IMG/VR virus record: IMGVR_UViG_3300017991_001520
Span: 1-24,338 of that record
Strand: one strand, 5' to 3'
Source: a virus
Length of the DNA: 24,338 nt
Made by a program: the position numbers and the translations under genes. Each line of letters starts with the position of its first letter. Position 1 is the first letter of the stretch. The notes under the pieces were generated by a model. That model saw nothing but the letters and a program-made list of their open reading frames with translations. It was not told the origin of the DNA and made no database searches. This document shows, piece after piece, positions 83-23,749 of this stretch.

Positions 83-123
83 TAAAGTAATTCTTTATAA
101 CTGAATGGGAAATATTAATAGGC

Positions 124-1580: not shown

Positions 1581-1581
1581 A

Positions 1582-4857: not shown

Positions 4858-4865
4858 CTATTCCC

Positions 4866-6515: not shown

Positions 6516-6536
6516 TTTTCAAAAATATCTCTTATA

Positions 6537-6785: not shown

Positions 6786-6787
6786 TT

Positions 6788-7255: not shown

Positions 7256-7256
7256 A

Positions 7257-9320: not shown

Positions 9321-9326
9321 AAATTT

Positions 9327-9461
9327 TTAATGAATCCATCCAAAAATATGTTGTACAATACATCCAGCCATAACTAACAAACAAACAATAATCATTTTAA
9401 ACCACCATTTTTTAATCATTTTAGAATACCATTCTTTAAATTTAGTTATCCACCAAACCAT
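9327..9461 (-). CDS. 44-residue single-pass membrane protein
   Basis: A short ORF with an excellent GGAGG ribosome site (9467-9471) 5 bases before the ATG and a TAA at 9327-9329. It fills the otherwise empty gap between the tail tubular A and B genes. The product starts MVWWITKFKEWYSKM, rich in Trp and Lys, followed by a hydrophobic stretch (residues about 23-41, MIIVCLLVMAGCIVQHIF). Basic residues precede the hydrophobic segment, predicting an N-in single-pass topology. VMAGC weakly resembles a lipobox, but Met at -3 is atypical. The role is unknown; holin-like, ejection-related or accessory membrane functions are possible. Confidence 0.7.
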   Translation of the reverse strand: MVWWITKFKEWYSKMIKKWWFKMIIVCLLVMAGCIVQHIFGWIH

Positions 9462-9477
9462 ATTATCCTCCCTATAT

Positions 9478-10104
9478 TTAAGTATTAATATTAGAATATC
9501 TGGCATCAGTTAAAGAAAAATCTTTAATATAGACTGACGGTGTGTCTCTACTATCAAGATACATCGTGGTATTTATTATTCCACCTAAGCCATTCTGAGT
9601 TGGAGTCCCATATACTTCATATTTTAATTCTTGAAAAAGAGTTGTATTGTCAGTTACTATTTGACAAAGTTCTACCTGCATAACTTTTATCATTAATTCT
9701 GTAAAATATTCAGGCCATAATTCTTCATTTATATTAAATTGATATTTAACCCATATTTCAGGTTCATTTGTCATTAACTTGTTACCGATTATTTCCCAAT
9801 CATCAATAGTGTATGAATTAATATTATTAGATGTATATACTTCTGGGAAACCAGCCTGGATTTTATCTGATGGCAAAGTATATTGATATTTCCAATGAGC
9901 TACTGGAGTTTCTAAATCCCTAGATAGTTGAGAAAATTTCATACTAAATCTCCAAGGATAAAAACTCAACATATATTTTTTTTTAGGTTCATATATGTTT
10001 TTACAAGCCGTAGCAATATCAGTTTTATCATCAAAACTTTGAATAGGAATAGCTCCCAATCTGATAAGAGCATTGGAACATATTTCAATATCTGTTAAAC
10101 TCAT
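9478..10104 (-). CDS. Tail tubular protein A-like (adaptor/gatekeeper)
   Basis: A 208-residue protein starting MSLTDIEICSNALIRLGA, the typical opening of the gp11-type tail tubular A family ('..DI...AL.RLG..PI'), followed by ...CKNIYEPKKKYML, also characteristic. T7 gp11 is about 196 residues and forms the ring between the portal and the nozzle. I chose the ATG at 10102-10104, preceded by AAGGAT. An in-frame ATG at 10134 would place the start inside a strong stem-loop and add ten residues unlike the family. It lies between the small head protein and the tail membrane ORF. Confidence 0.8.
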   Translation of the reverse strand: MSLTDIEICSNALIRLGAIPIQSFDDKTDIATACKNIYEPKKKYMLSFYPWRFSMKFSQLSRDLETPVAHWKYQYTLPSDKIQAGFPEVYTSNNINSYTIDDWEIIGNKLMTNEPEIWVKYQFNINEELWPEYFTELMIKVMQVELCQIVTDNTTLFQELKYEVYGTPTQNGLGGIINTTMYLDSRDTPSVYIKDFSLTDARYSNINT

Positions 10105-10122
10105 TGTAAATATCCTTACTAA

Positions 10123-10153
10123 AAGGCCCCACACAAAAGTTGTATGGGGCCTT
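10123..10153 (-). terminator. Strong stem-loop between head and tail genes
   Basis: On the minus strand the RNA can form a 14-bp stem (AAGGCCCCATACAA with TTGTGTGGGGCCTT, one G-U pair) with a 3-base loop, followed by UU then AG. The stem is very stable for this AT-rich genome, but the U-tract is short. It may be a leaky terminator letting capsid and the 84-residue gene be expressed above the tail genes, or an RNA-processing or stabilising hairpin. Confidence 0.65.
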
Positions 10154-10158
10154 AATGT

Positions 10159-10413
10159 TTAATGCGCTGCGTCTGATAAGGCTGTAATTTGAGAAGTAGT
10201 ATTCGTAATTACTTCGATATATCCAAAAAAAACACTATCCGATCCCACAAGAAAGATAATATCTCCAACAGCCATCCCATATTTATTAGCTCCTGCGAAA
10301 AAGTCGTCTGCATCTAAATCAGCACCAGCTTTTGTTTTATCTGTATATACCCAAATTTTAGCGTAACCAGTTGAACCAGCCACATTGTTTAATCTTTTGC
10401 TTTCAAAAGCCAT
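10159..10413 (-). CDS. Small capsid-adjacent head protein
   Basis: An 84-residue protein beginning MAFESKRLNNVAGSTGYAKI, then WVYTDKTKAGADLDADDFF and a GDIIFLVG beta strand. Proteins of this size and pattern often sit directly after the capsid gene in podoviruses and are thought to decorate or stabilise the head; that is inference here. The gene is 17 bp after the capsid stop, with an AGGAG-like site (TAGGAGATTATAAC) before its ATG. Together with the capsid it lies upstream of the hairpin at 10123-10153, so both could be made at higher level than the tail proteins. Confidence 0.6.
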   Translation of the reverse strand: MAFESKRLNNVAGSTGYAKIWVYTDKTKAGADLDADDFFAGANKYGMAVGDIIFLVGSDSVFFGYIEVITNTTSQITALSDAAH

Positions 10414-10430
10414 GTTATAATCTCCTATTA

Positions 10431-11267
10431 TTAAGATTCTTCATGAATAACTTTAACCATACCTTTATTGTCAATAGCGACTGCACCGGCTGAAAATACA
10501 GTATTAACAAGCCACGATGTTTTTTGGGCAATATAATTAATTTCTGTTCTCATATTCATACCAATTGCATATCCAAGAGAATCTTTATGATATGCGAATG
10601 CTGTTCTATCATCTCCTGTTTTCGGTAAACCACCTTCCGCCATATATCCAACGGTTAAAATTTTAAACCCTAACCATTGAGACAATTCACCTTGTACCAA
10701 CGCTTTCACAGCATTTTTGTCAAATGTGTCTGCATCAGCATCCCCCAACATATCATAGAGTCCTTCAGAAGACATTAAAAAATATCTGTTGTCTCCAGGA
10801 ACAGTCTGATAATCAAGGAGTCTTTTTGCATCTCTAAACTTTGCAGTATTCATGCCAGTCGTAGATCCAATTGTTTTTGGAACTTCCAATAATGTAGCGC
10901 CATCATCAAAAGCATCAATAATAATCTGATCTTCTCGTCTTGCTACAGCCTTAGAAGATAATGAAACTAATTCTCTTCTTTCATCAAAATTAATTTTAGG
11001 AGCATCAAAAATATCAGTATACTCTGGAGCGTTCCAATCTTCCATAGTAGCAGTTACATGGCTATAATCAATGTTCATTGGAGAGACATCTGCCTGGGGA
11101 ACTTTTTTATTTGCCATTCCCTGATTTACTTTTTGGAATCTTTCAGTAAGACCTTCTACTCCAGTTTTAACCTTAACTGTAGAACGTAGCTGCGCATTCT
11201 GTGCGTATTCCTGTTTTACGTCTCGATCAAATTCAGCTACAACAAGATCGCTAATGTATTTACTCAT
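10431..11267 (-). CDS. Major capsid protein
   Basis: A 278-residue protein with a HK97-like pattern of podovirus capsids: N-terminal arm (ISDLVVAEFDRDVKQEYAQ), DDGATLLEVPKT, RDAKRLLDYQTVPGDNRYF, then a C-terminal GAVAIDNKGMVKVIHEES. Shorter than T7 gp10A (345 residues) but normal for related short capsids. It is the first gene of the minus-strand virion operon, with an AAAGGA ribosome site. The usual upstream neighbour, the scaffold gene, is not here but at the far right on the plus strand. Confidence 0.85.
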   Translation of the reverse strand: MSKYISDLVVAEFDRDVKQEYAQNAQLRSTVKVKTGVEGLTERFQKVNQGMANKKVPQADVSPMNIDYSHVTATMEDWNAPEYTDIFDAPKINFDERRELVSLSSKAVARREDQIIIDAFDDGATLLEVPKTIGSTTGMNTAKFRDAKRLLDYQTVPGDNRYFLMSSEGLYDMLGDADADTFDKNAVKALVQGELSQWLGFKILTVGYMAEGGLPKTGDDRTAFAYHKDSLGYAIGMNMRTEINYIAQKTSWLVNTVFSAGAVAIDNKGMVKVIHEES

Positions 11268-11383
11268 AATAATTTTTCCTTTTTAAATATTAAACATAAA
11301 AAAAACATATATTTAAAAAGGTTGCGTCTTATTTTTCATCGGCCAATTTGGTTGCGATATAAAACGGCCTTTCTATATATCTA

Positions 11384-11412
11384 ATAATATAGAATATCTT
11401 AAAAATAAACAA
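11384..11412 (-). promoter_or_regulatory. Candidate promoter for the capsid-to-fibre operon
   Basis: Minus strand: TTGTTT (11407-11412), a 17-base spacer, then TATTAT (11384-11389), a 5/6 match to the -10 consensus. A start near 11377 would give a leader of about 110 nt containing the two GGTTGCG sites (read as CGCAACC). AT-rich DNA gives such matches often, so support is moderate. Confidence 0.35.
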
Positions 11413-11506
11413 TTATTTTTTATTGGAATAGTATTTTAAAAAAAATCTATATTTTAGGAGCTAATTTTAAGTTTTATTTGAATTTTTAAAAAAAATATTT
11501 TTTTTG

Positions 11507-11535
11507 TTGACAACCATATTTTTGTATGTCATGTT
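11507..11535 (+). promoter_or_regulatory. Candidate promoter for the recombination/replication operon
   Basis: A perfect -35 TTGACA (11507-11512) is followed at 17 bases by CATGTT (11530-11535), a poor -10 (3/6). A consensus TATAAT lies further downstream near 11560 but at non-canonical spacing. The site could need an activator, or only one of the elements may be real. Confidence 0.3.
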
Positions 11536-11598
11536 GCGCACAATGGGTACTAATAAACATATAATATGACAACAATACATAAAAATGAAGGGTTCACT

Positions 11599-12621
11599 AT
11601 GAGCGAATTAATGGTTACAACATATTCTATGTGGAAACTGTTTTGTAATTGCAGAAAAGCTTTTGAATATCGTTATATAAAAAAGTTAGTTCCTAAAGAA
11701 ATTGATGATAATCTTTTTTTTGGATCAGTTATTCATGAATGTCTTGAAATCTGGCATCGAAAACGAAAACTTGAAAAGGTTATTAAACATCTCAATCAGA
11801 TCTATGCCAACCGGGCCCGGGATGACCATAAGCTCTCTAACTGGCATCTGGCCACCGCCATGATGAGTTCATACTCGGAGCAATATCCCATCGAGGACTT
11901 TGATGTGATTGCTCTGGAGAAGACCTTCGAAGGCCCCATCATCAATCCGGATACCAACGCCGTATCGAGGAGTTTCGTGCTGGCTGGCAAGGTGGACGGT
12001 CTTGTCCAGCAGGATGGTCAATACTTCATACTGGAACATAAGACCGCATCTCAAATTGATGCTGGATATTTGGAACGGTTATGGACTGATTTTCAGATCA
12101 TCATTTATGCGTGGTATCTGGAACATACCCTCGGCATCCGTATTTCCGGTATCATATATAACATACTGGTCAAAGCTAAACTTCGCCAGATCAAAGGCGA
12201 AACGGAAGCTGAATTTGAATCCCGGCGTGCCGAGCTGATCGCCAAATCCAAAACCGGAAAGAGCAGCGCCAAGCGTAAGATGCCAGAGCCAGATGATGTC
12301 TTTCAGCAGCGACTCAAAGACAAATACCTCGAACCAGTCATGTTTCATCGGGAATGGATTTATATATCACCAAATCAATTTGAACAACTTCAGAAAGAAC
12401 TTTGGGAATTATCTATAAATCTTCTTGATGCTATAAAGAGGAATAAATTTTATAGAAATACTAGTTTTTGTTTTAAATTTAATCGTCCATGTCCTTATTT
12501 CCCAATATGTAGAAGCAATGAAAGTATAAATATTATCTCAAATTATTATGAGATAAGAGAACCAAATGAAGAACTAAAAACTAAAAAGGAGGCAAATTAT
12601 GACAGTTCAACAATTAACTGA
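11599..12621 (+). CDS. Cas4/RecB-like PD-(D/E)XK nuclease with iron-sulphur cysteines
   Basis: A 340-residue protein of the RecB/AddB/Cas4 nuclease family. Core motifs in order are GSVIHECLE (42-50, His46), GKVDG (Asp133), LEHKT (Glu146 and Lys148) and FQIIIYAWYLE (the Q-x-x-x-Y motif). Cys18 (or Cys16) near the N-terminus with Cys291, Cys298 and Cys304 at the C-terminus match the split cysteine pattern that binds a 4Fe-4S cluster. Such phage enzymes resect DNA ends to feed an annealing recombinase, and a Sak4-like protein lies just downstream. The ATG at 11599 has a GAAGGG site 6 bases upstream; an earlier in-frame ATG at 11566 lacks one. Residues about 64-252 are encoded by a GC-rich patch. 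Confidence 0.85.
   Translation: MSELMVTTYSMWKLFCNCRKAFEYRYIKKLVPKEIDDNLFFGSVIHECLEIWHRKRKLEKVIKHLNQIYANRARDDHKLSNWHLATAMMSSYSEQYPIEDFDVIALEKTFEGPIINPDTNAVSRSFVLAGKVDGLVQQDGQYFILEHKTASQIDAGYLERLWTDFQIIIYAWYLEHTLGIRISGIIYNILVKAKLRQIKGETEAEFESRRAELIAKSKTGKSSAKRKMPEPDDVFQQRLKDKYLEPVMFHREWIYISPNQFEQLQKELWELSINLLDAIKRNKFYRNTSFCFKFNRPCPYFPICRSNESINIISNYYEIREPNEELKTKKEANYDSSTIN
11790..12355. other. GC-rich patch covering the nuclease core
   Basis: Hand counts give 31 of 60 G/C at 11821-11880 and 32 of 60 at 12241-12300, against 14 of 60 at 11641-11700 and 12 of 60 at 12421-12480, in one uninterrupted gene. The edges are fairly sharp. It looks like a gene-conversion tract from a higher-GC relative, spanning the catalytic residues but not the cysteine ends. 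Confidence 0.7.
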
Positions 12622-12835
12622 AAAAATAGGCCATGAAGATGCATATCTTATTTTAAAAGATAATTATTATGTTTCATTAAAAGAAGGAGATATCGTTATA
12701 AAAAGCTCTGCTTCTTTTAAAGAAATATTAGATGTTTTAATTTTACATGCAAAACAATTTTTGGAAGGGGAATATACAGAATCAAAAATTTTAGATGAAT
12801 TGTTTAGAAGTCGTTTAAAAAAACAATCTATGTAA
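12599..12835 (+). CDS. Unknown 78-residue protein
   Basis: A small protein overlapping the nuclease gene by 23 bp, with a strong AAGGAGG site. It begins MTVQQLTEKIGHEDAYLILK and is a mixed alpha/beta, slightly acidic-to-neutral product ending LFRSRLKKQSM. There is no membrane segment or recognised motif. Its place between the Cas4-like nuclease and the Sak4-like ATPase suggests a helper in recombination, but that is inference only. Confidence 0.65.
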   Translation: MTVQQLTEKIGHEDAYLILKDNYYVSLKEGDIVIKSSASFKEILDVLILHAKQFLEGEYTESKILDELFRSRLKKQSM

Positions 12836-12840
12836 TTACT

Positions 12841-12916
12841 GGTACTATAGCTCAATTGGAAGAGCAATTGGCTTATAACCGATAGGTTCTTGGTTCGAAT
12901 CCAAGTAGTACCACCA
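12841..12916 (+). tRNA. tRNA-Ile (anticodon UAU)
   Basis: A full cloverleaf. The acceptor GGTACTA pairs perfectly with TAGTACC. The D stem is GCTC/GAGC with a GG-containing loop. The anticodon stem ATTGG/CCGAT has one G-U pair and a 7-base loop CTTATAA, giving UAU at positions 34-36. The T stem is CTTGG/CCAAG with loop TTCGAAT, the discriminator is A, and CCA is encoded. It decodes AUA, a codon frequent in these genes. Most bacteria read AUA with a lysidine-modified CAU tRNA, so a UAU isoacceptor is noteworthy. It lies in the same orientation as the flanking genes and is probably co-transcribed. Confidence 0.95.
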
Positions 12917-12937
12917 ATAACATAAAGGAGGAAAATT

Positions 12938-13651
12938 ATGCTACCAGACACAAAAACAACAATTAAAACAAACATTCATGATTTAACTACATTGATATAT
13001 GGGCCAAGTAAAATAGGAAAAAGTACCTGGTGTTCAAATGCAGAGAAGGCTTTGTTTCTTGCTACTGAACCTGGATTAAATGCACTTGAAGTTTATTCAA
13101 TTTCAATTACATGTTGGAATGATCTTTTGAATGCTTGTTCTGAAATTTCAAAAGATAAACATGATTTTAAAACCATAATTATTGATACCATCGATAATGC
13201 ATATCGTATGTGTGCAGATCATATATGTAACAAGTTTAATGTTGAACATGAATCTGATCTTACATATGGAAAAGGATATGCTTTAATTAATAATGAATTC
13301 CATAGAGTAATCAATAAATTAGCATTCATGCCTTACGGACTAATTTTAGTATCTCATTCTATAGAAAAAGATATTGAAACTCGTACTGGAAAGCATACAA
13401 GGATAGTTCCTACATTGCCAGAAAAAGCCAGAAAAATTGTAACAGGGTTAGTTGATTTGATTTTATTTTGTGATTTAGAGATAGAAACAGATAAAGAAGG
13501 TAATTCTATATATAAAAGAATTATAAGAACGAAACCTAGCCCAAATTATGATGCAGGTGATAGAACTGGTATTCTTCCAGAAACAATACCATTAGATTTT
13601 AAAAATTTTACTAAAATTTTTGATGATATTAATAATAAAAGAGGAGAATAA
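12938..13651 (+). CDS. Sak4-like single-strand annealing ATPase
   Basis: A 237-residue RecA-core ATPase of the phage Sak4/AAA_24 type. Walker A is GPSKIGKST (22-30); the acidic TEPGLNAL (43-50) follows, as in this family; Walker B is TIIID (79-83). GLILVSHS (about residue 140) matches the sensor-like strand. RecA/Rad51-fold phage recombinases of this kind promote annealing with the help of a phage SSB, and an SSB-like gene follows after 5 bp. The start has AAAGGAGG at good spacing. It could also be called a generic ATP-binding protein, but the neighbourhood with nuclease and SSB supports recombination. Confidence 0.8.
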   Translation: MLPDTKTTIKTNIHDLTTLIYGPSKIGKSTWCSNAEKALFLATEPGLNALEVYSISITCWNDLLNACSEISKDKHDFKTIIIDTIDNAYRMCADHICNKFNVEHESDLTYGKGYALINNEFHRVINKLAFMPYGLILVSHSIEKDIETRTGKHTRIVPTLPEKARKIVTGLVDLILFCDLEIETDKEGNSIYKRIIRTKPSPNYDAGDRTGILPETIPLDFKNFTKIFDDINNKRGE

Positions 13652-13656
13652 CAGAC

Positions 13657-14118
13657 ATGTCAAAAATTAAAAAATATCTAGAATCATTTGATCAAACTTT
13701 TGAAGAACATGTGGCTGAAACCAATACATTCGAAGGGATACCAGAAGATGGTATTTATCATGTAATGGTTGATTCTGTAAGTTTAGAAGTATCAAAAAAT
13801 AATAATTATATGTTGATGTGGGTTTTAAAAATAATTGATGATGATAAATATGCAGGATATTTTTTATATAAAACAAGTTTATTAATGACAAAAGAAAACA
13901 TAAGATGGTTAAAAGATGAACTTTCAGTGTGCCAATTATATTTAAATAAAATATCAGATTTACCAAACTGTTTGGAATCATTGTTAGATATAGGATTAGA
14001 AATAATAAAGAAAACAAAAGAAAAAGATAAAAATTCAAAATTTTATAATATTTATTTTAAAAAAAGAATCCCAGTTTTTTCTAATGATATAGAAGAAAAA
14101 AACGACATCCCTTTTTAA
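13657..14118 (+). CDS. SSB-like protein (DUF669-type) with DIPF tail
   Basis: A 153-residue protein with a central beta-rich region (GIYHVMVDSVSLEVSKNNNYMLMWVLKI) like phage DUF669/SSB-type OB folds, an acidic hinge, and the C-terminal tip NDIPF. This is nearly identical to the DDIPF tip with which bacterial SSB recruits partner proteins. It likely coats single-stranded DNA and directs it to the Sak4-like recombinase and host repair or replication proteins. It has a GAGGAG ribosome site and sits 5 bp after the ATPase gene. The tail match is direct; the OB fold is inferred from pattern and context. Confidence 0.75.
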   Translation: MSKIKKYLESFDQTFEEHVAETNTFEGIPEDGIYHVMVDSVSLEVSKNNNYMLMWVLKIIDDDKYAGYFLYKTSLLMTKENIRWLKDELSVCQLYLNKISDLPNCLESLLDIGLEIIKKTKEKDKNSKFYNIYFKKRIPVFSNDIEEKNDIPF

Positions 14119-14143: not shown

Positions 14144-14344
14144 ATGGAAGATACAAAAAAATTTTTAAAGATTACAGAACTAAGTGAATATTTAAATTTA
14201 TCTAAAAGAACAATATATAGACATATAAAAAAAAACAATCTTCCTTTTACGAGAATTGGAGGATTGATTAGATTTGAAAAAAAAAATGTAGATGAATGGA
14301 TTAACAACCAAAATAATAATAATAATAATAATAATAATAATTAA
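14144..14344 (+). CDS. Excisionase/MerR-like HTH protein with poly-Asn tail
   Basis: A 66-residue DNA-binding protein of the HTH_17 (excisionase-like) type: LKITELSEYLNLSKRTIYRH, then KKNNLPFTRIGGLIRFEKKNVDEWI, the classic helix-turn-helix plus wing. It ends in ten consecutive Asn residues encoded by a pure AAT repeat. I start it at the ATG at 14144 (AGGA 6 bases upstream) rather than a TTG at 14126. It may regulate the replication module that begins 80 bp downstream. No integrase is visible, so a true excisionase role is unsupported. Confidence 0.75.
   Translation: MEDTKKFLKITELSEYLNLSKRTIYRHIKKNNLPFTRIGGLIRFEKKNVDEWINNQNNNNNNNNNN
14312..14341 (+). repeat. (AAT)10 microsatellite
   Basis: Ten perfect AAT units directly before the TAA stop of the HTH gene give a poly-asparagine tail. 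Slippage would change the tail length without breaking the frame. Confidence 0.85.
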
Positions 14345-14424
14345 TAATTAATAAAATCTTATTAACTCTTAGGCTCTCCTTACTCTTAATAATTTAAAAA
14401 TATCAAAAAAAAGATTACTTTATT

Positions 14425-15000
14425 ATGAAAAAAATAATATCTATATCGATAGATGAAACCCTTGCGGCATGGCTAAAAAAAGAATCACTTCTCCAAAAGA
14501 CTAGTGTTTCACAACTAATAGACACCTTGGTTGCTAATAAAGCAAAACAAGGGTTTAATTTTTTTTCGTACCGCACTATAGGTATCAGGTATAAAGATAC
14601 TAGTTTATATTATATATATAATAATATAAATAATACTAAACACCTTATACCTAGAGCAAAAAGCATGCCAAAAAATAAAGAATTTGAAAATAATTATGAA
14701 AAAATTTGTATCCCATTGAAAGGAAATGATTTTTTTGAAATAGACGCAGAATTTTATAATTTTTTAAAGAGTGAATTTAAAGAACTGGATGTTGAATCTG
14801 AATTAATGAAAATCAAAAGATGGAATTTTGTTAATAAAGACCGAAGAAAAACAAAAAAAGGAATCAAAAGACATATAAATTATTGGTTTGAAATGGCAAA
14901 AAACAAAAAATTTAAAACAGATTCATATCAACAAGAAACATCAAAATCTTTTGACTGGGAACCTACCGCGGGATTTTATGAAGAATTATCAAAAACATAG
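14425..15000 (+). CDS. RHH plus replication-initiator-like domain protein
   Basis: A 191-residue protein. The first 40 residues (MKKIISISIDETLAAWLKKE...SVSQLIDTLVANKA) look like a ribbon-helix-helix DNA-binding domain. Residues 96-165 (IPLKGNDFFEID, then LDVESELMKIKRWNFVNK, then KTKKGIKRHINYWF) match a pattern common at the C-termini of phage replication-initiator and O-like proteins, where a helical module ends in 'W..A'-type motifs. With the DnaC-like loader downstream this suggests an origin-binding or helicase-loading role. The combination is not one I can match to a named family. The ribosome site is weak. Confidence 0.55.
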   Translation: MKKIISISIDETLAAWLKKESLLQKTSVSQLIDTLVANKAKQGFNFFSYRTIGIRYKDTSLYYIYNNINNTKHLIPRAKSMPKNKEFENNYEKICIPLKGNDFFEIDAEFYNFLKSEFKELDVESELMKIKRWNFVNKDRRKTKKGIKRHINYWFEMAKNKKFKTDSYQQETSKSFDWEPTAGFYEELSKT

Positions 15001-15085: not shown

Positions 15086-15865
15086 TTGGAAAATATAAAA
15101 CATTCACAAAACATGATTGATAAGAATCAAGTTCAAAAAAATTTAGAAGCTGTCAAACAAGATGGATTTTATCTTAACTATGTAAAAGAACAGACATCAG
15201 AGATATGTTTATCTGCTGTAAAACGAAATGGATTTGCTCTTAAATATGTAAAAGAACAGACATCAGAGATATGTTTAGCTGCTGTAAAACGAAATGGATT
15301 TGCTCTTAAATATGTAAAAGAACAGACATCAGAGATATGTTTAGCTGCTGTAAAACAAAAGGGATATGCTCTTCAATTTGTAAAAGAACAGACATCAGAA
15401 ATTTGTATGGCTGCTGTTAAACAAAATGGATATGCGCTTGAATTTGTAAAAGAACAGACACCAGAAATTTGTATGGCTGCTGTTAAACAAGATGGATATG
15501 CGCTTCAATTTGTAAAAGAACAGACACCAGAAATATGTATAGAAGCTGTCAAACAAAATGGACTTTCTCTTAAATATGTAAAAGAACAGACATCAGAAAT
15601 ATGTTTGGCTGCTGTAAAACGAAATGGATCTGCTATTCAATATGTAAAAGAACAGACACCAGAAATCTGTATAGAATCTGTTAAACAAGATGGATATGAT
15701 CTTAAATATGTAAAAGAACAGTCACCAGAAATTTGTATAGAAGCTGTCAAACAATATGGGTTGGCTATTAAATATGTAAAAGAACAAATACCAGAGATAT
15801 GCTTAGAAGCTGTCAAACAAAATAAATACGCTGTACAATATATAGATAGAGAGGCATTATTATGA
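15086..15865 (+). CDS. 22-residue-repeat protein, copy 1 (DUF4116-like)
   Basis: A 259-residue protein made of about 11 units of 22 residues with consensus EIC-[LMI]-x-AVK-[QR]-x-G-x-x-[LI]-x-[YF]-VKEQ-[TS]-[PS], each 66 bp of DNA. The unit pattern (AVKQNG..L.YV) resembles the DUF4116 repeat, which likely folds as a helical solenoid. The last unit ends KYAVQYIDREALL. I accept the TTG start because GAGAGG lies 7 bases upstream and its N-terminus (ENIKHSQ) aligns with the KKIKYTQ starts of copies 2 and 3. The stop overlaps the next ATG (ATGA). It lies between replication genes; the function is unknown. Confidence 0.8.
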   Translation: MENIKHSQNMIDKNQVQKNLEAVKQDGFYLNYVKEQTSEICLSAVKRNGFALKYVKEQTSEICLAAVKRNGFALKYVKEQTSEICLAAVKQKGYALQFVKEQTSEICMAAVKQNGYALEFVKEQTPEICMAAVKQDGYALQFVKEQTPEICIEAVKQNGLSLKYVKEQTSEICLAAVKRNGSAIQYVKEQTPEICIESVKQDGYDLKYVKEQSPEICIEAVKQYGLAIKYVKEQIPEICLEAVKQNKYAVQYIDREALL

Positions 15866-16830
15866 AAAAAATAAAATATACACAAGTTTTAGCAGCTGTC
15901 AAACAAAATGGATGGTCTCTTGAATATGTAGAAAACCAGACACCAGAAATATGTATAGAAGCTGTTAAACAAAATGGACTTTCTCTTAAATATGTAAAAG
16001 AACAAACACCAGAAATATGTATGGAAGCTGTCAAACAAAATGGATGGTCTCTTGAATATGTAGAAAACCAGACACCAGAAATATGTTTAGAAGCTGTTAA
16101 ACAACATGGATGGGCTCTTCAATATGTAAAAGAACAAACACCAGAGATCTGTTTAGAAGCTGTTAAACAAAATGGATGGGCTATTAAATATGTAAAAGAA
16201 CAGACATCAGAGATATGTTTAGCTGCTGTCAAACAAAATGGATATGCGCTTGAATTTGTAAAAGAACAAACACCAGAAATATGTATGGGTTCTGTCAAAC
16301 AAAGTGGATTTGCTTTTAAATATGTAAAAGAACAGACATCAGAGATATGTTTAGCTGCTGTCAAACGAAATGGATATGTTCTTCAATTTGTAAAAGAACA
16401 GACACCAGAAATATGTATGGCTGCTGTAAAACAAGATGGATATGCGCTTGAATTTGTAAAAGAACAGACACCAGAGATATGTTTAGCTGCTGTCAAACAA
16501 AATGGACTTTCTCTTAAATATGTAAAAGAACAGACATCAGAAATTTGTATAGAATCTGTCAAACAATATGGGTTGGCTATTAAATATGTAAAAGAACAAA
16601 CACCAGAGATATGCTTAGAAGCTGTTAAACAAAATGGATTTGCTCTTAAATATGTAAAAGAACAGACACCAGAAATTTGTATAGAAGCTGTCAAACAATA
16701 TGGGTTGGCTATTAAATATGTAAAAGAACAGACACCAGAAATTTGTATGGCTGCTGTTCAACAAAATGGATTTTCTCTTAAATATGTAAAAGAACAGACA
16801 CCAGAAATATGTATGGCTGCTGTCAAATAA
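15862..16830 (+). CDS. 22-residue-repeat protein, copy 2, truncated by a stop
   Basis: A 322-residue product of the same repeat family, with about 14 units. It starts MKKIKYTQVLAAVKQNGW, with GAGAGG 7 bases before the ATG, inside the last codons of copy 1. It stops at TAA (16828-16830), where every sibling unit has CAA (the Gln of AVKQ). Reading on in frame gives a further 1.5 units and the normal family ending YIDREALL. So the original gene ran to 16941 and encoded 359 residues, and a single C-to-T change removed the last 37 positions. The shortened protein still holds most of the solenoid and may work. Confidence 0.8.
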   Translation: MKKIKYTQVLAAVKQNGWSLEYVENQTPEICIEAVKQNGLSLKYVKEQTPEICMEAVKQNGWSLEYVENQTPEICLEAVKQHGWALQYVKEQTPEICLEAVKQNGWAIKYVKEQTSEICLAAVKQNGYALEFVKEQTPEICMGSVKQSGFAFKYVKEQTSEICLAAVKRNGYVLQFVKEQTPEICMAAVKQDGYALEFVKEQTPEICLAAVKQNGLSLKYVKEQTSEICIESVKQYGLAIKYVKEQTPEICLEAVKQNGFALKYVKEQTPEICIEAVKQYGLAIKYVKEQTPEICMAAVQQNGFSLKYVKEQTPEICMAAVK

Positions 16831-16941
16831 AATGGATATACTCTTCAATTTGTAAAAGAACAAATACCAGAGATATGCTTAGAAGCTGTTATACAAAATA
16901 AATACGCTGTACAATATATAGATAGAGAGGCATTATTATGA
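16831..16941 (+). pseudogene. In-frame remnant of copy 2 after the premature stop
   Basis: The frame of copy 2 continues open after the TAA for 36 codons (NGYTLQFVKEQIP, EICLEAVIQNK, YIDREALL) to TGA at 16939-16941, which overlaps the ATG of copy 3. It lacks its own start. Its last codons still carry the GAGAGG ribosome site for copy 3. Confidence 0.8.
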
Positions 16942-17357
16942 AAAAAATAAAATATACACAAGATTTAGCAGCTGTTAAACAAAATGGATTGGAACTTGAA
17001 TATGTAAAAAATCAAACACCAGAAATTTGTATGGCTGCTGTTAAACAAAATGGATTTGCTCTTCAATTTGTAAAAGAACAAACACCAAAGATATGCTTAG
17101 CTGCTGTCAAACGAAATGGATTTGCTTTTAAATATGTAAAAGAACAGACATCAGAAATATGTTTAGCTGCTGTCAAACGAAATGGATTTGCTCTTCAATA
17201 TGTAAAAGAACAGACACCAGAGATTTGTATGGCTGCTGTTAAACAAGACGGATTTGCTCTTAAATATGTAAAAGAACAGACACCAAAGATATGCTTAGCT
17301 GCTGTCATACAAAATAAATACGCTGTCCAATATATAGATAGAGATGCATTATTATGA
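16938..17357 (+). CDS. 22-residue-repeat protein, copy 3 (short)
   Basis: A 139-residue member with about six units. It starts MKKIKYTQDLAAVKQNG, almost identical to copy 2, and ends KYAVQYIDRDALL, with the stop overlapping the ATG of the DnaC-like gene (ATGA). Two units begin KIC rather than EIC. GAGAGG lies 7 bases before its start, within the remnant of copy 2. Because copy 2 now terminates 108 bp earlier, coupled translation of this gene may be reduced unless its own site is sufficient. Confidence 0.8.
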   Translation: MKKIKYTQDLAAVKQNGLELEYVKNQTPEICMAAVKQNGFALQFVKEQTPKICLAAVKRNGFAFKYVKEQTSEICLAAVKRNGFALQYVKEQTPEICMAAVKQDGFALKYVKEQTPKICLAAVIQNKYAVQYIDRDALL

Positions 17358-18007
17358 AAAAAATAAAATATTCACAGAAAACAAAATCGATTAATCAAAA
17401 TAAAAAACTTCCAACTAATGAAGAAGAATATTGGTTTAAAGTTCATGAAAATTTAATAGCGGCTGATATTCCAAAACGCTTTCAAAATTTAAATTTTGAT
17501 TCTATTAAAATTAATAAAGAAATAGTAAAGCCTGTAAAAATTTTAAGAACATATGTAGAAAAATTTGATGTATTGTCAAAAAAAGGTGTGTCTGGATTTT
17601 TATCTGGTAATCCAGGAACTGGTAAAACTATGTTGGCGTGTATTGTGATATCTGAAATTATCAAACAAGGATATACATCAAAATATATTCTAGCATGGGA
17701 ATTATTACAATATCTTAGAAAATCATATCTGCATAAAGATATAGATATTCAAAAAAGAATTAATGAATTTACTTATCCAGATTTATTAATTATTGATGAA
17801 ATAGGCATACAGCATGGTTCTAATGATGAAAGAATATTATTATATCAAATAATAAATAGTAGATATTCAAAAATAAAATCTACTATATTAATAAGCAATT
17901 CAATATCGCCAATTAAAGATGGATTTATTGATGAAAGGATAATGGACAGATTAAAAGAAAATAGCGGATTTAATATTAATTTGAATATTAAAAGTTTTAG
18001 GAAATAA
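17354..18007 (+). CDS. DnaC-like helicase loader ATPase
   Basis: A 217-residue AAA+ protein of the DnaC/IstB group. IPKRFQNLNFDS (39-50) is the typical pre-Walker segment; Walker A is GNPGTGKT (85-92), Walker B LLIIDEIG (144-151), sensor 1 TILISNS (177-183), and ERIMDRL (194-200) carries the candidate arginine finger. It probably loads the host DnaB helicase, or a phage helicase outside this window, at the phage origin. The N-terminus MKKIKYSQ matches the starts of the repeat genes. The upstream ribosome site reads GAGATG where the sibling junctions have GAGAGG. Confidence 0.85.
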   Translation: MKKIKYSQKTKSINQNKKLPTNEEEYWFKVHENLIAADIPKRFQNLNFDSIKINKEIVKPVKILRTYVEKFDVLSKKGVSGFLSGNPGTGKTMLACIVISEIIKQGYTSKYILAWELLQYLRKSYLHKDIDIQKRINEFTYPDLLIIDEIGIQHGSNDERILLYQIINSRYSKIKSTILISNSISPIKDGFIDERIMDRLKENSGFNINLNIKSFRK

Positions 18008-18012
18008 TAATT

Positions 18013-18396
18013 ATGAAAAATACTTGGAAAAACATTGAAAGTAAAATAGCACAATTTTTTAATACAGAAAGAACTCCCTTATCTGGTGGAAATTCTAAAC
18101 ATACAAGATCAGATACTCTACATAAAAATCTTTTTATAGAAGTAAAATATAGAAAAACTCATTCTGCCGTAGCTCTTTGGAGAAGTATTTTAAAAAAAGC
18201 ACAAATGGAAAAAAAAACACCAGTTGTTTGTTTAAAAGAAAAACATAAACCTGGATTTTTTATTGTATGCCATTCTAATGATTTAACTGAAATTTCATCC
18301 TATGTAAAAGATAAAAATATTGATGATAGGATAGATAATGAAATCACAGAAACATCTTCAATAGGCTTTATAACTTCAGATTATAAATATAAATAA
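18013..18396 (+). CDS. Small PD-(D/E)XK nuclease, resolvase-like
   Basis: A 127-residue protein with a compact nuclease core: Glu9 in the first helix (WKNIESKIAQFF), RTPLSGGNSKHTRSD (Asp34), then FIEVKYRK (Glu43, Lys45) and a strand KTPVVCLKEKHKPGFFIV. The layout resembles Holliday-junction resolvase and VRR-type phage nucleases. It may cut branched replication intermediates before packaging. A solitary restriction-like enzyme is possible. It starts 5 bp after the helicase loader, with AGGA about 9 bases upstream. Confidence 0.7.
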   Translation: MKNTWKNIESKIAQFFNTERTPLSGGNSKHTRSDTLHKNLFIEVKYRKTHSAVALWRSILKKAQMEKKTPVVCLKEKHKPGFFIVCHSNDLTEISSYVKDKNIDDRIDNEITETSSIGFITSDYKYK

Positions 18397-18409
18397 TAAA
18401 GGTTATATT

Positions 18410-18766
18410 ATGAAAATTATTAAAAATAATTATTCTGAAGATGTACTGAATGATTTTTGTAATTATTTAGAAAATTTTGATATAATAGATTATACAGAAG
18501 TTTGGTTAAAAGAAGAACATTCAGATTTATATGGAAGAACTTTTACTAATAATGACAAAAATAGACATAGAATAGAAATTTATAAAAATAATGAATATAC
18601 TAATTTAGAAATACTTTTTCATGAATTAGCACATGTATGTATTTATAAAAAAAATCAAAATAGTTTAATACAATATAATCAAAAACATGGAAGATATTTT
18701 TATCAAATGGAAGAAAAAATTAAAAATTATATGAAAAATTATTTAAAAGAAATTGAAGGAAATTAA
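18410..18766 (+). CDS. Small HExxH metalloprotein (SprT-like)
   Basis: A 118-residue protein with the zinc-protease signature LFHELAHV (HExxH at 71-75) and a downstream KHG (His93) that could be the third ligand. This spacing and the small size recall SprT-like and other minigluzincin domains found in phages. There is no signal peptide or membrane segment, so it is probably cytoplasmic. Substrate unknown. It has an AAAGG ribosome site and lies between the resolvase-like gene and terminase, with 1 bp to the TerS start. Confidence 0.65.
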   Translation: MKIIKNNYSEDVLNDFCNYLENFDIIDYTEVWLKEEHSDLYGRTFTNNDKNRHRIEIYKNNEYTNLEILFHELAHVCIYKKNQNSLIQYNQKHGRYFYQMEEKIKNYMKNYLKEIEGN

Positions 18767-18767
18767 T

Positions 18768-19232
18768 ATGGCTCAAAAAAAAGAAAGAGGAAGACCAAAA
18801 GAATATAATAAAGATACTATTAAAAGAATATGTAAATTGATAATGGAAGGAAATACTATTACAGAAGTTGCACGGAAATTAGGAGTTACTAGACAAGCTA
18901 TTTATCTTTGGAGAAAAAAAGATGAAGAATTTAATAATTTATATGAAGAAGCATTAAGATTTAAAGCAGAATTATATATGGATGAAATTTTAGAAATTTC
19001 GAATGATGAAAGCAGAGATATATTAATAGATCCAGAAACAGGAAAACAATGTGGAAATAACACTGCAGTACAAAGAGATAAATTGAAAATAGCTGCAAGA
19101 ACAAAACTTATGCAATGGATTGATCCTAAAAAATATTCAATTCAAAATATCGATATAACAACAAATGGTGAAAATGTCTATGGTGGTTTAATTATTACTC
19201 CCCCAAAGGAAATAAAAGAAAATGATAAATGA
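18768..19232 (+). CDS. Terminase small subunit
   Basis: A 154-residue DNA-binding protein: basic N-terminus (KKERGRPKEYNKDT), then a helix-turn-helix (ITEVARKLGVTRQAIYLWRKKDEEF, about 31-55), a helical region (LYMDEILEISNDE) and a C-terminal KIAARTKLMQWIDPKKYS. That is the usual plan of small terminases that recognise the packaging site. I start at the ATG with AAGGAAATTAAT upstream, not the ATG 15 bases earlier. A 100-residue ORF and TerL follow. Confidence 0.8.
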   Translation: MAQKKERGRPKEYNKDTIKRICKLIMEGNTITEVARKLGVTRQAIYLWRKKDEEFNNLYEEALRFKAELYMDEILEISNDESRDILIDPETGKQCGNNTAVQRDKLKIAARTKLMQWIDPKKYSIQNIDITTNGENVYGGLIITPPKEIKENDK

Positions 19233-19524
19233 AAAAAATAATTATAAAATATGGGACATGGAAGTGGGTCATATTTTAGATGATGCAGAAAAATGGTGGG
19301 AAAATCATGGAAAAGAATTAATGAGAAATAGAACTTTTTCAGATGAAAGAAGAGATCAGCAAGAAGCATTAAATGCAACAAATCCTCTTCATTATAATTA
19401 TCTTGGAGGATTTTCAGGGATATTAGTAGGTCTACCCTGGGAATTGTTAACCAAAAAAGAAAAATATAAAATAGCAAAAACTTATATCTTAACTCTTAAA
19501 CAGATGAAAGATAAGTTAAAATAA
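19222..19524 (+). CDS. Unknown 100-residue protein between TerS and TerL
   Basis: Overlaps the TerS gene by 11 bp and TerL by one base. It holds a Trp-rich EKWWENHGKEL, then NYLGGFSGILVGLPWELLTKKEKYKIAKT. The charged helical frame with a hydrophobic middle (GGFSGILVGLPWELL) might contact a membrane or partner. No known family recognised. Tight packing between both terminase genes implies a packaging-related role, which is inference. Confidence 0.7.
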   Translation: MINEKNNYKIWDMEVGHILDDAEKWWENHGKELMRNRTFSDERRDQQEALNATNPLHYNYLGGFSGILVGLPWELLTKKEKYKIAKTYILTLKQMKDKLK

Positions 19525-21158
19525 TGAAAAGGAATATGACAAAACTGGATCTTTCTTATCATAAAACAATATGGGATTTTATGAATGATGATAGTTTCGT
19601 AAGAATAGTTATTGGCCCTGTAGGCTCTGGTAAATCCACAGGAGTTATTTGTGGTGAAATAATGAGACGAGCTTTAATGCAAGAGCCTTCGCCAGTAGAT
19701 AATACAATATATTTTAAAGCTTTGGTTGTAAGAAATACGATGCCAGACCTTAAAAAAACGACCATTAAAACTTGGAATTCATTATATCCACCCAATATTG
19801 GAAAATGGAGAAACAACCCACCTTTTCATCATTTCAAAAGGAAACCAACCAAGAAACATCCTGGCATAGATTTTTTAATAGAATTTATGGGACTTGATAC
19901 TATTAAAGATGCTGGAAAACTTTTATCTTACGAAGGAACATTAATAGCTTTTAATGAATGTAAAGAGATTAGAAAAGATATTATAGATCAAGCCACAGCA
20001 AGGGTTGGTCGTTATCCATCCATGAAACAGGGTGGGATCATGCCAACTTGGTATGGCATCATAGCTGATACTAACCCATATTCAGCTGGGCATTGGATGG
20101 ATGCTTTAGAAAAAGATATGCCTACCGGGTGGAAATATTTTAGACAACCGCCGGCGGTATTTGAAATGGAAAAAGTTAAAAATGGATGGAAATCAATAGA
20201 GAATGAATATGAATATATTATACCCGAAAATAAAAAAGAATATATTCATACTGGTGGTGGTTCTATATGGGCAGTAAATCCGAAGGCAGAAAATCTTCCA
20301 TATTTACCTATTAATCATTCATTAGATCCCAACTATAAAGAAGAATTAAGAAAAGATCCAAAATATCTTGAGCAAGCAAGATTAAGAGCTGGTGGTTATT
20401 ATCCAAATTTAATTAAAGGTAAGGACAAATCATATATTCAAATATATGTCCAAGGCAAAAATGGTTCATTAACATCTGATCATGCAGTAATACCAGAATT
20501 TAATGCTCATACAATGGTGAGTGAATCTATTGAATATAACGAATTATTACCTCTTCATTGTGGAATAGATTTTGGTGCGGGAACGTTAAATCCTGCTGCC
20601 GTATTCGGACAATTAGATATTATTAATGGAAGATGGCATATATTAAAAGAATGTGTATGTCCTAATATGGGTTTGGTACAATTTGTCAATCAAGTTTTGT
20701 TAACCATCAAAGAAAATTTTTTGGGAGTAGAAGATTTAAGAGTATGGGGAGATCCTGCTGGATTACAAAAAGATGGTATATCCATGAAGACTTATTTTGA
20801 TCATATGAGAACACAAGGATTATATGCTAATCCTGCTCCATCTAACGAGATTGATATAAGAATAGAATGTATCAAAACGCCTATGTTACGTTTTTCAAAT
20901 GGAAAACCTGGAATATTGTTTAGCCCTAATTGTAAGATTTTAATCGAAGCTCTTTCTGAAAAATGGTGTTATAAAAGATTAAATGTCCCGGGAGAAGATA
21001 GATATGACGATAAACCAAGCAAGGATCATCCTTGGTCAGATGTGGCGGACGCTTTAGGATATATGTTATCTGGTGGTGGGGAACATGGTGCTCTTTCTTA
21101 TAATAAAACAAATCAATTAGATTTTACTATTTTAGATAATAACTGGGAGGTATTGTGA
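19524..21158 (+). CDS. Terminase large subunit (packaging ATPase-nuclease)
   Basis: A 544-residue TerL. The ATPase has Walker A GPVGSGKST (31-39) and a Walker B-like LIAFNE (140-145), with Asn where many have Asp. The RNaseH-fold nuclease has GIDFGAG (Asp349), WGDPAG (Asp410) and HPWSDVADALGYM (Asp506/Asp509). It pumps DNA into the prohead through the portal and cuts it. The family pattern matches T7-like and N4-like podovirus terminases, but I do not claim a closer group. The ATG overlaps the previous TAA. Confidence 0.9.
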   Translation: MKRNMTKLDLSYHKTIWDFMNDDSFVRIVIGPVGSGKSTGVICGEIMRRALMQEPSPVDNTIYFKALVVRNTMPDLKKTTIKTWNSLYPPNIGKWRNNPPFHHFKRKPTKKHPGIDFLIEFMGLDTIKDAGKLLSYEGTLIAFNECKEIRKDIIDQATARVGRYPSMKQGGIMPTWYGIIADTNPYSAGHWMDALEKDMPTGWKYFRQPPAVFEMEKVKNGWKSIENEYEYIIPENKKEYIHTGGGSIWAVNPKAENLPYLPINHSLDPNYKEELRKDPKYLEQARLRAGGYYPNLIKGKDKSYIQIYVQGKNGSLTSDHAVIPEFNAHTMVSESIEYNELLPLHCGIDFGAGTLNPAAVFGQLDIINGRWHILKECVCPNMGLVQFVNQVLLTIKENFLGVEDLRVWGDPAGLQKDGISMKTYFDHMRTQGLYANPAPSNEIDIRIECIKTPMLRFSNGKPGILFSPNCKILIEALSEKWCYKRLNVPGEDRYDDKPSKDHPWSDVADALGYMLSGGGEHGALSYNKTNQLDFTILDNNWEVL

Positions 21159-21562
21159 AATTTTATATAATATTTCTTAATGACAAAAATATTCCAGACA
21201 ATCAAAAAAAATGGTGGAATAAATTTTTAAATATTAATTATAAGCATTGTTTTATTATTCAGGTTTTTAATTTATTTGATGGGAAAGAAATTTTTGTAGT
21301 ATTGGAAAATCTATATAATTCTATTAATATAGAAATATCATGCATTGATATTGAAGATTTGCCGTCATTGGTTGATAATTTAACTTGTATTGTTGAATAT
21401 AATATATTAATAAATCCTTATAAGAAACAAAATATAGAACCGATTACATGTGTTACAATAATAAAAAAATTAATTGGTTTGAAAAATATTTTTATTCAGA
21501 CTCCTTTACAGCTTAAAAAATATTTAATTAGAAATGGGGGAAAAATAATATGGGAGCAATAG
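21155..21562 (+). CDS. Unknown 135-residue protein after terminase
   Basis: Starts with GTG (GGGAGG 4 bases upstream) overlapping the TerL stop. Beta-rich N-terminal half (KFYIIFLNDK..., FIIQVFNLFDGKEIFVVLENL), then a conserved-looking C-terminal part: CVTIIKKLIGL, then FIQTPLQLKKYLIRNG. A Cys followed by 'TP.QL..YL' is familiar from podovirus proteins in this position, which have no established function; a cysteine-peptidase-like fold is conceivable. Confidence 0.65.
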   Translation: MKFYIIFLNDKNIPDNQKKWWNKFLNINYKHCFIIQVFNLFDGKEIFVVLENLYNSINIEISCIDIEDLPSLVDNLTCIVEYNILINPYKKQNIEPITCVTIIKKLIGLKNIFIQTPLQLKKYLIRNGGKIIWEQ

Positions 21563-21759
21563 TAGATATTTTTAAAGGTAAAAAGCCAGATACTTCGGCA
21601 TTAGAAGCCCAAGAAGAAAAGGCCAGAAAAAAAGAATTGCAACTTGCTCAAGAAATTGCAGCACGAAGAAGACTTTCTTCTGGTTCTTCAAAAACAATAT
21701 TTAGTGCCGTAGAAGGGAAAGCCGCCAGTACAGCTAAAAAAACAAAATTAGGGCAATAA
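21550..21759 (+). CDS. Small virion-associated protein before the portal
   Basis: A 69-residue basic protein, MGAIVDIFKGKKPDTSALEA, then a Lys/Glu/Ala-rich coiled helix and a Ser/Thr/Lys tail. It overlaps the previous gene by 13 bp, has a GGGGGA ribosome site, and ends 3 bp before the portal gene. Similar short helical proteins precede the portal gene in many podoviruses; function unknown. Confidence 0.65.
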   Translation: MGAIVDIFKGKKPDTSALEAQEEKARKKELQLAQEIAARRRLSSGSSKTIFSAVEGKAASTAKKTKLGQ

Positions 21760-21762
21760 ATA

Positions 21763-23319
21763 ATGGATATTGCAAATTTATTAAAAAGAATTAAAAAGGC
21801 TTGGGATAAAAAAAGTTTATGGGATAGTTTGTATGATGATGCGTATTCATTAGCTATTCCAAACAGGAACACGATGTTTGAGAAAACACCCGGTCAAGAA
21901 AAAAATATTGGTGTTTATGATTCTACATTGCAACAATCAACCGCCAAATTAGCATCTACCCTACAATCTACAATCACTCCGCCATTTACAGAATGGGCAA
22001 CAATGACACCTGGCCCATTTATATTCCAAGATCGAGAAGAAACATTACGAAAATTACAACAAATAAACAAAGCTGTATTTGCTGCTATTGGTTCAAGTAA
22101 TTTTGACACTGCTATCGGTGAATTTTGGCTTGATCTTTGTATCGGTACTGGAGCTTTATTAGTATTAGAAGAGAATAGCTCTGATAATTTATTTAAATTT
22201 ATTCCTGTTCCAATTTCTGAAATTGCACTTGAAGAAGGCCCAGACAATACCATTGGGGCTGTATTTAGAAAATATAAAAAACCATTACGTGTTCTTGAAC
22301 GGATGTGGCCTGATTTAAAAAAGTCTCCAGAATTAAAAAAATTAATGGACGAAGACGGAGGAAAAGAAGTAACTATCCATGAAGTTACTTATAGAACACA
22401 AGATTCTGATAAATGGCAATATTCTGTTTTAATAGAAAAATTAACAGATAAAAACAATGAACCATATCAATTGGTAAAAAGAGAATATTCGACTAATCCG
22501 TGGATAATATCAAGATGGATGAAAGTTTCAGGCGAAACTTTTGGAAGAGGGCCTGTTTTAAATGCTTTGCCCGATGCAAAAACTTTAAATATGGCTAAAA
22601 AAATAGAGTTACAAAATGCTTCTTTGGCTATTTCAGGAGTTTGGTTAGCAAGAAATAATGGTATCTTTAACCCGAATTCAATAAAGATTAGACCTGGAGC
22701 CGTCATACCTGTACAAAGCACGGGTGGTGGTATGGGGGCTGATTTGGTTCCTTTGCCGGTAGGAGGCGATTTGCAATATGCACAAATTATCGCAGAGGAT
22801 ATGAGACAATCAATTAAGGATGCGATGTTTGATCGATCAATTCCTGATACAGGAGCCGTCAGATCTGCTACAGAATGGATTGTAAGACAACAAGAACTTC
22901 AGGAGGCTATCGGTGCTCCTTTTGGCCGTATGCATCAAGAGCTTATTATTCCATTATACAATAGAATACTGGATATTCTTTATAAAAAAGGTATTATTGA
23001 AAAATTAAAGATAGATGGCAATACTATTAAAGTTCAAATTACGGGAGCATTGGCTCAAGCTCAGAATCTTAAAGAAGTCGAAACTATTGTTAATTGGGCA
23101 CAGACTTCTATGGCATTAACTGGATTAGAAGTTTTTCAGGCTACAGCACGGGTTGAAGATATGGTTGACAAGCTTGGTGCTCTGATGGGCATTGATGCTA
23201 ACTTAATAAGAACACAAGACGAACGGGCACAAGTGGTTAATGCAGCCATGCAGGCCGTTCAAGGAGGTATGAGTGATAACCAAGGAACAACTGAGGGAGG
23301 TACTAAAGTACCATCCTGA
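21763..23319 (+). CDS. Portal (head-to-tail connector) protein
   Basis: A 518-residue protein of the T7 gp8-type connector family (T7 gp8 is about 536 residues). Characteristic parts are RIKKAWDKKSLWDSLYDDAY near the N-terminus, STLQSTITPPFTEWATM, an NFDTAIGEFWLDLCIGTGALLV segment and TFGRGPVLNALPDAKTLN. It forms the dodecameric vertex through which TerL packages DNA and to which the tail tubular A ring attaches. The final 16 codons (MSDNQGTTEGGTKVPS) overlap the HNH gene. Confidence 0.9.
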   Translation: MDIANLLKRIKKAWDKKSLWDSLYDDAYSLAIPNRNTMFEKTPGQEKNIGVYDSTLQQSTAKLASTLQSTITPPFTEWATMTPGPFIFQDREETLRKLQQINKAVFAAIGSSNFDTAIGEFWLDLCIGTGALLVLEENSSDNLFKFIPVPISEIALEEGPDNTIGAVFRKYKKPLRVLERMWPDLKKSPELKKLMDEDGGKEVTIHEVTYRTQDSDKWQYSVLIEKLTDKNNEPYQLVKREYSTNPWIISRWMKVSGETFGRGPVLNALPDAKTLNMAKKIELQNASLAISGVWLARNNGIFNPNSIKIRPGAVIPVQSTGGGMGADLVPLPVGGDLQYAQIIAEDMRQSIKDAMFDRSIPDTGAVRSATEWIVRQQELQEAIGAPFGRMHQELIIPLYNRILDILYKKGIIEKLKIDGNTIKVQITGALAQAQNLKEVETIVNWAQTSMALTGLEVFQATARVEDMVDKLGALMGIDANLIRTQDERAQVVNAAMQAVQGGMSDNQGTTEGGTKVPS

Positions 23320-23749
23320 TTCAGGGCTGTTTATATGGAATGATTCATGTAGGAGAAATAGTATGCGTAACAAGATTGCTGGTTCAGTAAATAATCTTGG
23401 TTATGTGAAAATAAAACTAAATGGTAAGAGCTACGCTGCTCACAGATTAGCTTTTCTGTATGTAACCGGAAGCTGGCCTGAGAACCAAGTCGACCATATC
23501 AATAGGATTAGAACTGATAATAGATGGGAGAATCTAAGGAAAGCTTCTAATGCTGAGAATATGTTAAATACTGTTCTGCATAAGAACAACATATCTGGAG
23601 TCCCGGGTATAACCTGGGACAAAATATTAAAAATGTGGCGTGTGAACTATCGCACTAAATACTATGGTGTATTCAAGCGTTTAAAAGACGCAAAGATTAA
23701 ACGCAAACAGTTGGAGGAAGAGGATGGATATAAAGGATTTAGATTTTGA
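23273..23749 (+). CDS. HNH homing endonuclease with AP2-like tail
   Basis: A 158-residue, free-standing homing endonuclease. SYAAHRLAFLYVTGSWP then VDHINRIRTDNRWENLR (73-89) is the HNH_3 core, and SGVPGITWDKILKMWRVNY...YYGVFKRLKDA (108-140) is an AP2-type DNA-binding module. A GTG start with AAGGAGG 5 bases upstream lies inside the portal gene, and the end overlaps the next gene by 26 bp. It looks inserted between two virion genes and may cut related phages lacking it at this locus. Confidence 0.9.
   Translation: MITKEQLREVLKYHPDSGLFIWNDSCRRNSMRNKIAGSVNNLGYVKIKLNGKSYAAHRLAFLYVTGSWPENQVDHINRIRTDNRWENLRKASNAENMLNTVLHKNNISGVPGITWDKILKMWRVNYRTKYYGVFKRLKDAKIKRKQLEEEDGYKGFRF

Follow-up and report, generated by a model that had tools for sequence, protein, structure and literature searches.

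Organization of the locus

The window analysed here is the whole stretch of DNA, an IMG/VR virus record of 24,338 bases. It carries three adjacent DUF4116 repeat genes, downstream of a weakly recognized initiator-like ORF and directly upstream of a DnaC/DnaI-like helicase loader gene. The genes and repeats of this region are listed below.

11566–14118, plus strand: early module with PD-(D/E)XK exonuclease, Sak4-like annealing protein and ssDNA-binding protein (Pfam, PHROG)
14425–15000, plus strand: initiator or replisome-organizer-like ORF, 191 aa (tblastn match; N-terminal Arc-like, E 0.0025)
15086–15865, plus strand: DUF4116 gene 1, 259 aa, 10 full units and a cap (PF13475, E 7.6e-83)
15862–16830, plus strand: DUF4116 gene 2, 322 aa, premature TAA in unit 15 (Pfam, E 1.1e-113)
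16831–16940, plus strand: continuation of the gene 2 frame, with the end of unit 15 and the cap, overlapping the gene 3 ATG (from translation)
16938–17357, plus strand: DUF4116 gene 3, 139 aa, 5 full units and a cap (Pfam, E 4.2e-43)
15143–17354, plus strand: 33 DUF4116 units of 66 bp each over the three ORFs (TRF, profile matches, unit count)
17354–18007, plus strand: DnaC/DnaI-like helicase loader, 217 aa (phrog_50, E 6.9e-43; PDB DnaC 6qel, E 6.4e-20)
18013–18396, plus strand: Holliday-junction-resolvase-like gene (phrog_2002, E 7.8e-9)

A previous reading of the sequence alone (the sequence-only reading) had counted about 33 units of 22 residues in three adjacent genes, and the count was confirmed by ORF calls, TRF and counting of the units. 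The 33 units consist of 30 full 22-residue units and three C-terminal cap half-units. The 66-bp period is ungapped with zero indels inside each array (TRF), and 28 DUF4116 domain matches were spread over the array in a Pfam profile search. Gene 1 has a TTG start codon preceded by GAGAGGG. Three ORFs are present as described, but the middle gene is cut by an in-frame TAA (16828–16830, unit 15) at a position where 29/29 other units have CAA or CGA. The gene 2 frame is otherwise open to about 16937 and ends in the cap common to the other genes, and one DUF4116 profile match crosses the stop codon. With the stop, 37 C-terminal residues are lost, the cap included. It was concluded that gene 2 is a broken gene and not a naturally short one. 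Given the premature stop, some of the cluster may be subject to drift.

The longest exact repeat inside the array is 78 bp, so that short-read assembly could resolve it. Window positions 16867 to 24338 are also covered by another contig, L009, with a single difference (synonymous, at 17240), and the gene 3 protein of L009 is identical. Since L009 starts within the array, the copy number 5' of 16867 is that of the window contig alone. The contiguity of gene 3 and the loader is seen in both contigs (the reads are perhaps not independent); that of the initiator-like ORF and gene 1 is seen only in the window contig. Both contigs end at exactly the same base (24338 in the window, 7472 in L009), inside the scaffold gene. 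At the other end, window positions 1–82 are GC-rich and coding-like, ending in ...LPDNLLQVIEEAIEEVE stop, and the remainder is AT-rich; this stretch of about 80 bases may be of foreign origin.

Residues 118–161 of the initiator-like ORF show 50% to gp42, a "replisome organizer" of Ruminococcus phage phiRgIBDN1 (tblastn, E 8e-4), a weak match of 44 residues in one record. Relatives of this ORF were not found among viral contigs. The array had been placed between an initiator-like gene and a DnaC-like loader; the loader is well supported by phrog_50, the initiator only weakly by its E value of 8e-4. An (AAT)n run at 14312–14354 encodes an asparagine tail on an HTH_17 protein and is a possible phase-variable tract. 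Downstream of the resolvase gene, a small ORF at 18410–18766 carries a HExxH motif (FHELAH) and has no PHROG match; on the motif it is a putative small metallopeptidase. A similar ORF with HELSH is found in the relative L014 (6095–6445). An HNH-like endonuclease ORF with a GTG start (23273–23749) overlaps the 3' end of the portal gene.

The relatives L010 to L014 have a terminase at 64–80% to that of the window and carry no DUF4116 genes. In L010 and L014 the ORF upstream of the terminase looks by eye like a T7-like RNA polymerase and tblastn found no loader, which indicates that the window phage has a different early module. The terminase, portal, scaffold, capsid and tail genes of L010 (6288–18696) are all on one strand. 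Comparison of window positions 1–11267 with 18753–24338 shows that the capsid-to-tail block lies to the left of the early module and is encoded on the minus strand. This strand difference reflects either a real inversion, as the gap at 11268–11565 resembles divergent promoters, or a chimeric join.

Family assignment, fold and coding constraint

The resemblance of the unit to DUF4116 proved to be true membership. The three array proteins score 272, 371 and 145 bits against PF13475, above the Pfam gathering cut-off of 24.9 bits, and the same 22-residue two-helix unit is found in DUF4116 proteins and in PHROG 17056, 5925 and 31839. The AlphaFold2 model of the gene 1 protein, built with 23 relatives, is an all-helical solenoid of high confidence (pLDDT 95.8, pTM 0.86), as the sequence-only reading had anticipated. 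Each unit folds into two helices, of 10 and 6 residues, and a loop. An alpha-solenoid had been predicted for DUF4116 (PMC8078820), in agreement with the model.

No solved homologs of the solenoid were found by sequence search, and fold searches return generic solenoids only. In comparison with ARM, HEAT and alphaRep proteins the best Foldseek E value was 4.5e-3, and the best VIA score was Z 6.9 with rmsd 13.3 over 227 residues. Among BFVD viral models the matches are mostly giant-virus DUF4116 proteins, some of them annotated as F-box (best E 2.2e-19). The repeats of F-box proteins usually select the substrate, and the annotation thus points to a protein-binding module. Searches of the PADLOC defence library gave only the low-score matches typical of repeats, none of which looked credible. 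The repeat proteins also matched many unrelated Pfam, PHROG and NCBIfam families weakly; these matches have no passing stretch and were put down to the repeats. To our knowledge the DUF4116 family has no known role, and we are aware of no experiment or solved structure that gives the binding partner of any DUF4116 protein.

Comparison between units gave pS 0.25 and pN 0.14, a ratio of about 0.57, which corresponds to moderate constraint only. V4, G8, V14, Q17, I21 and C22 are invariant across units, the most variable positions are 7, 9, 10 and 12, and unit identity is 0.82–0.85 at nearly all lags. The ratio, together with the pattern of invariant and variable positions, is better explained by a protein solenoid whose core is fixed and whose face varies than by a DNA element. 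The repeat pattern suggests that the variable positions may form one face.

Copied gene junctions

The three genes and the loader are connected by joints of nearly the same sequence.

15803–15887, plus strand: junction 1, cap YAVQYIDREALL, AGAGAGG Shine-Dalgarno, ATGA overlap, leader MKKIKYTQ
16879–16963, plus strand: junction 2, same cap, Shine-Dalgarno, ATG and leader; 58/60 upstream nt identical to junction 1
17295–17379, plus strand: junction 3, same cap, Shine-Dalgarno and ATGA; leader MKKIKYSQ opens the loader gene

Each joint contains the cap (YAVQYIDR-ALL), AGAGAGG or AGAGATG, and a stop/ATG overlap. The 60 nt before the loader are identical at 55 positions to those before gene 2 or gene 3. 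Similarity continues past the start codons: when gene 2, gene 3 and the loader are compared over their first 26 nt, 22–25 positions are identical (22–23/26 for the loader against junctions 1 and 2). The first eight codons of the loader are near-identical to those of the repeat genes. The first 26 nt of gene 1 are identical to the other leaders at 19–21 positions. Translation of gene 2 now terminates at the premature stop, ahead of its joint. Promoters and terminators near the cluster were predicted no more often than in shuffled sequences.

A simple explanation of the copied joints would be tandem duplication with one breakpoint within a repeat and the other after the eighth codon of the loader. 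Such a duplication would have copied the repeats together with the gene junctions, each new copy bringing its own ribosome-binding site. With the Shine-Dalgarno carried in the cap DNA and the stop overlapping the next ATG, each copy and finally the loader would be translationally coupled. The leader may have originated in either the loader or a DUF4116 gene; the loaders of some relatives also start with MKKI.

A helicase loader without its N-terminal domain

The AAA+ core of the loader is complete, with Walker A and B, sensor and arginine residues (GNPGTGKT, LLIIDE and DRL are conserved). In the AlphaFold2 model the core is intact, residues 1–20 are disordered (pLDDT <50) and a single helix is formed by residues 22–36. 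The stretch before the core is 38 residues long and has zero cysteines, and E. coli DnaC exceeds the protein in length by about 23 residues. Just 5' of the loader start there is an in-frame stop.

We compared this protein with 77 loader relatives, chosen with patterns for the Walker motifs and ordered by their similarity to it; the comparisons were made at 28–38% identity. A C-x2-[HC]...C-x2-C motif lies ahead of the core in 76 of the 77, and it is missing from the window loader. All 77 have at least 57 residues before the core, measured from the first possible start codon. The loaders of Vibrio phage X29 and Pseudomonas phage F10, for example, are placed after an initiator gene and are about 31–36% identical in the AAA+ core, but they have a long N-terminal region with C-x2-H...C-x2-C. 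The zinc motif was not found encoded elsewhere in the window. DnaC and DnaI carry N-terminal helicase-binding domains (PMC4887207), and the DnaI domain adopts a zinc-binding fold (PMC3791466). By analogy with DnaI, the zinc-motif region of phage loaders probably binds the helicase, and the window loader would then lack the part expected to contact it.

The gene order is also unusual. Of 74 relatives, 64 have the loader directly against an upstream ORF; in the window, about 2.35 kb holding the DUF4116 genes separates the loader from the initiator-like ORF. A close relative showing the pre-insertion site was not found among the relatives compared.

Distribution of DUF4116 genes

DUF4116 relatives were found in many viral contigs, a few sequenced phages (jumbo phages included), 15 plasmids and diverse bacterial genomes, where some are fused to DUF3945, DUF6674 or a DEAD helicase. 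Tandem overlapping DUF4116 gene clusters recur, including in a 145-kb virus, and clusters of this type turn up here and there in phages, giant viruses and conjugative plasmids. Recurrent co-location with dnaC, which the sequence-only reading had proposed as a check, was absent: IstB/DnaC (PF01695) exceeded the cut-off in 0 of 71 other DUF4116 viral records (24 + 47; four weak sub-threshold matches), and DUF4116 was found within 5 kb of none of the 80 closest phage DnaC-like loader loci. No other DUF4116 cluster in these records and loci lies between an initiator and a DnaC-like loader. The arrangement, which according to the sequence-only reading is not known from any described phage system, was seen only in the window phage and the near-identical L009. 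The worry that the repeat genes might be unique to this contig therefore nearly holds for the arrangement, whereas the genes themselves are widespread.

A role in replication had also been suggested from gene position. DnaB and primase-helicase positions were taken from 46 records, and an approximate distance test on 11 records with a located replicative helicase, primase-helicase or loader showed that the distance from DUF4116 to that gene fits uniform placement (combined p 0.53); helicase proximity is not enriched. A phage group including L026 (5348–17116), L031 and L035 has DUF4116 clusters between a primase-helicase and a PHROG 62 helicase or terminase, a second setting in which DUF4116 adjoins replication genes; in L025 DUF4116 is beside a primase. 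A replication link is not dead, as some phage lineages put DUF4116 next to primase-helicase genes; proximity to replication genes is occasional and not a rule.

In phages Slicky01, phiFN37 and SCTP-2 the DUF4116 genes are in other modules. Pseudoalteromonas phage vB_PtuP_Slicky01 has tandem DUF4116 genes (WGH49978/WGH49977) with 57% identity over 85% of gene 2. They are in an accessory region with tRNA-Arg and NAD-synthesis genes, unlike the replication module of the window. PRPP synthetase and nicotinate phosphoribosyltransferase genes lie nearby (L015, 10189–15538), an NAD-restoring pair known from counter-defence. Alistipes and Bacteroides plasmids (p2BBH45, pBFS01_1) encode mobile-element DUF4116 proteins, with polyvalent-type LPD5/zincin proteins and a giant gene related to helicases close by; these differ from the window in being plasmid-borne and larger, with no helicase loader nearby. 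In these Alistipes and Bacteroides plasmids (L068, L069) the DUF4116 proteins lie between the polyvalent-type LPD5/zincin proteins and a 5-kb helicase-related gene, a setting that suggests a mobile-element protection role. In a DNA-level donor search the best outside match was 74% (L103, a 170-kb virus), about that expected for the family. The L103 contig name bears the same sample number as L009.

Discussion

We propose that a mobile cluster of protein-binding DUF4116 solenoids may have entered the initiator–loader junction, where the genes normally abut, and then been amplified, so that it would now be co-translated with a shortened loader. The solenoids could act early as adaptors that bind proteins much as ankyrin or armadillo repeats do, capturing a host protein in takeover or counter-defence. 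Binding of a host protein is the likeliest function, and the adaptor reading is favored by the F-box matches in giant viruses, the bacterial fusions, the core-plus-face repeat and the mobile distribution. The link to replication would be one of shared expression and not a conserved replication role. We give this reading as a whole, an inserted and amplified cluster of predicted host-protein adaptors, a probability of about 0.5.

Amplification of one DUF4116 gene might instead be selfish or neutral, decaying by nonsense mutation and with no function tied to the location. The premature TAA in gene 2, the high unit identity at nearly all lags, the contig break of L009 inside the array and the absence of the cluster from L010 to L014 are in line with such an expansion. 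Only a single stop is present among 30 units, however, pN/pS is below 1, the phage genome is compact and similar clusters persist across many viruses. We consider a purely non-adaptive origin possible but rather unlikely.

It is doubtful that the solenoids inhibit or hijack host replication initiation by acting on the host initiator, loader or helicase. The array does sit with a loader and an initiator-like gene, and there is a precedent in ORF104 of phage 77, a protein that binds the helicase loader DnaI of S. aureus (PMC4887207). The likeness to phage 77 is a functional analogy only: ORF104 is a non-repeat inhibitor of 52 aa to which no similarity is claimed, and DUF4116 has no recurrent replication context.

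A slightly more doubtful explanation is a split loader, in which the solenoids replaced the lost N-terminal docking domain and bridge the AAA+ core to the host helicase or initiator, being made in step with the core by translational coupling. In favor of it, among the window loader and its 77 relatives the sole one without the N-terminal domain is the one adjoining a DUF4116 cluster. This loader has kept an intact AAA+ core and has leader codons and an overlapping stop/start in common with the repeat genes, and the N-terminal domains of DnaC and DnaI bind helicase (PMC4887207, PMC3791466). The domain loss and the insertion may nevertheless be independent events, and the remaining loader helix (residues 22–36) may suffice. 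Gene 2 is broken, and none of the 71 other DUF4116 viral records searched has a DnaC-type loader over the cut-off. If true, a split loader would be the first molecular function for DUF4116, with its stoichiometry set by the duplicated stop/Shine-Dalgarno/ATGA joints.

Phage origins are often found beside initiator and loader genes, as these repeats are, and the sequence-only reading had raised the possibility that the DNA repeats act near an origin; that the 66-bp repeats are iterons or a regulatory DNA element with incidental ORFs is nonetheless very improbable, since open frames with Shine-Dalgarno sequences are kept over 2.2 kb, PF13475 E values go down to 1e-113, pN/pS is about 0.57 and the same protein repeats lie far from replication genes in Slicky01, phiFN37 and SCTP-2.

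The family and the cluster type are known, and what is new is the setting with a truncated partner gene. The copied junctions show a way for a repeat gene to multiply in which every copy arrives as a coupled cistron. In the window phage, whose genome is small, DUF4116 is tied to a defined partner gene.
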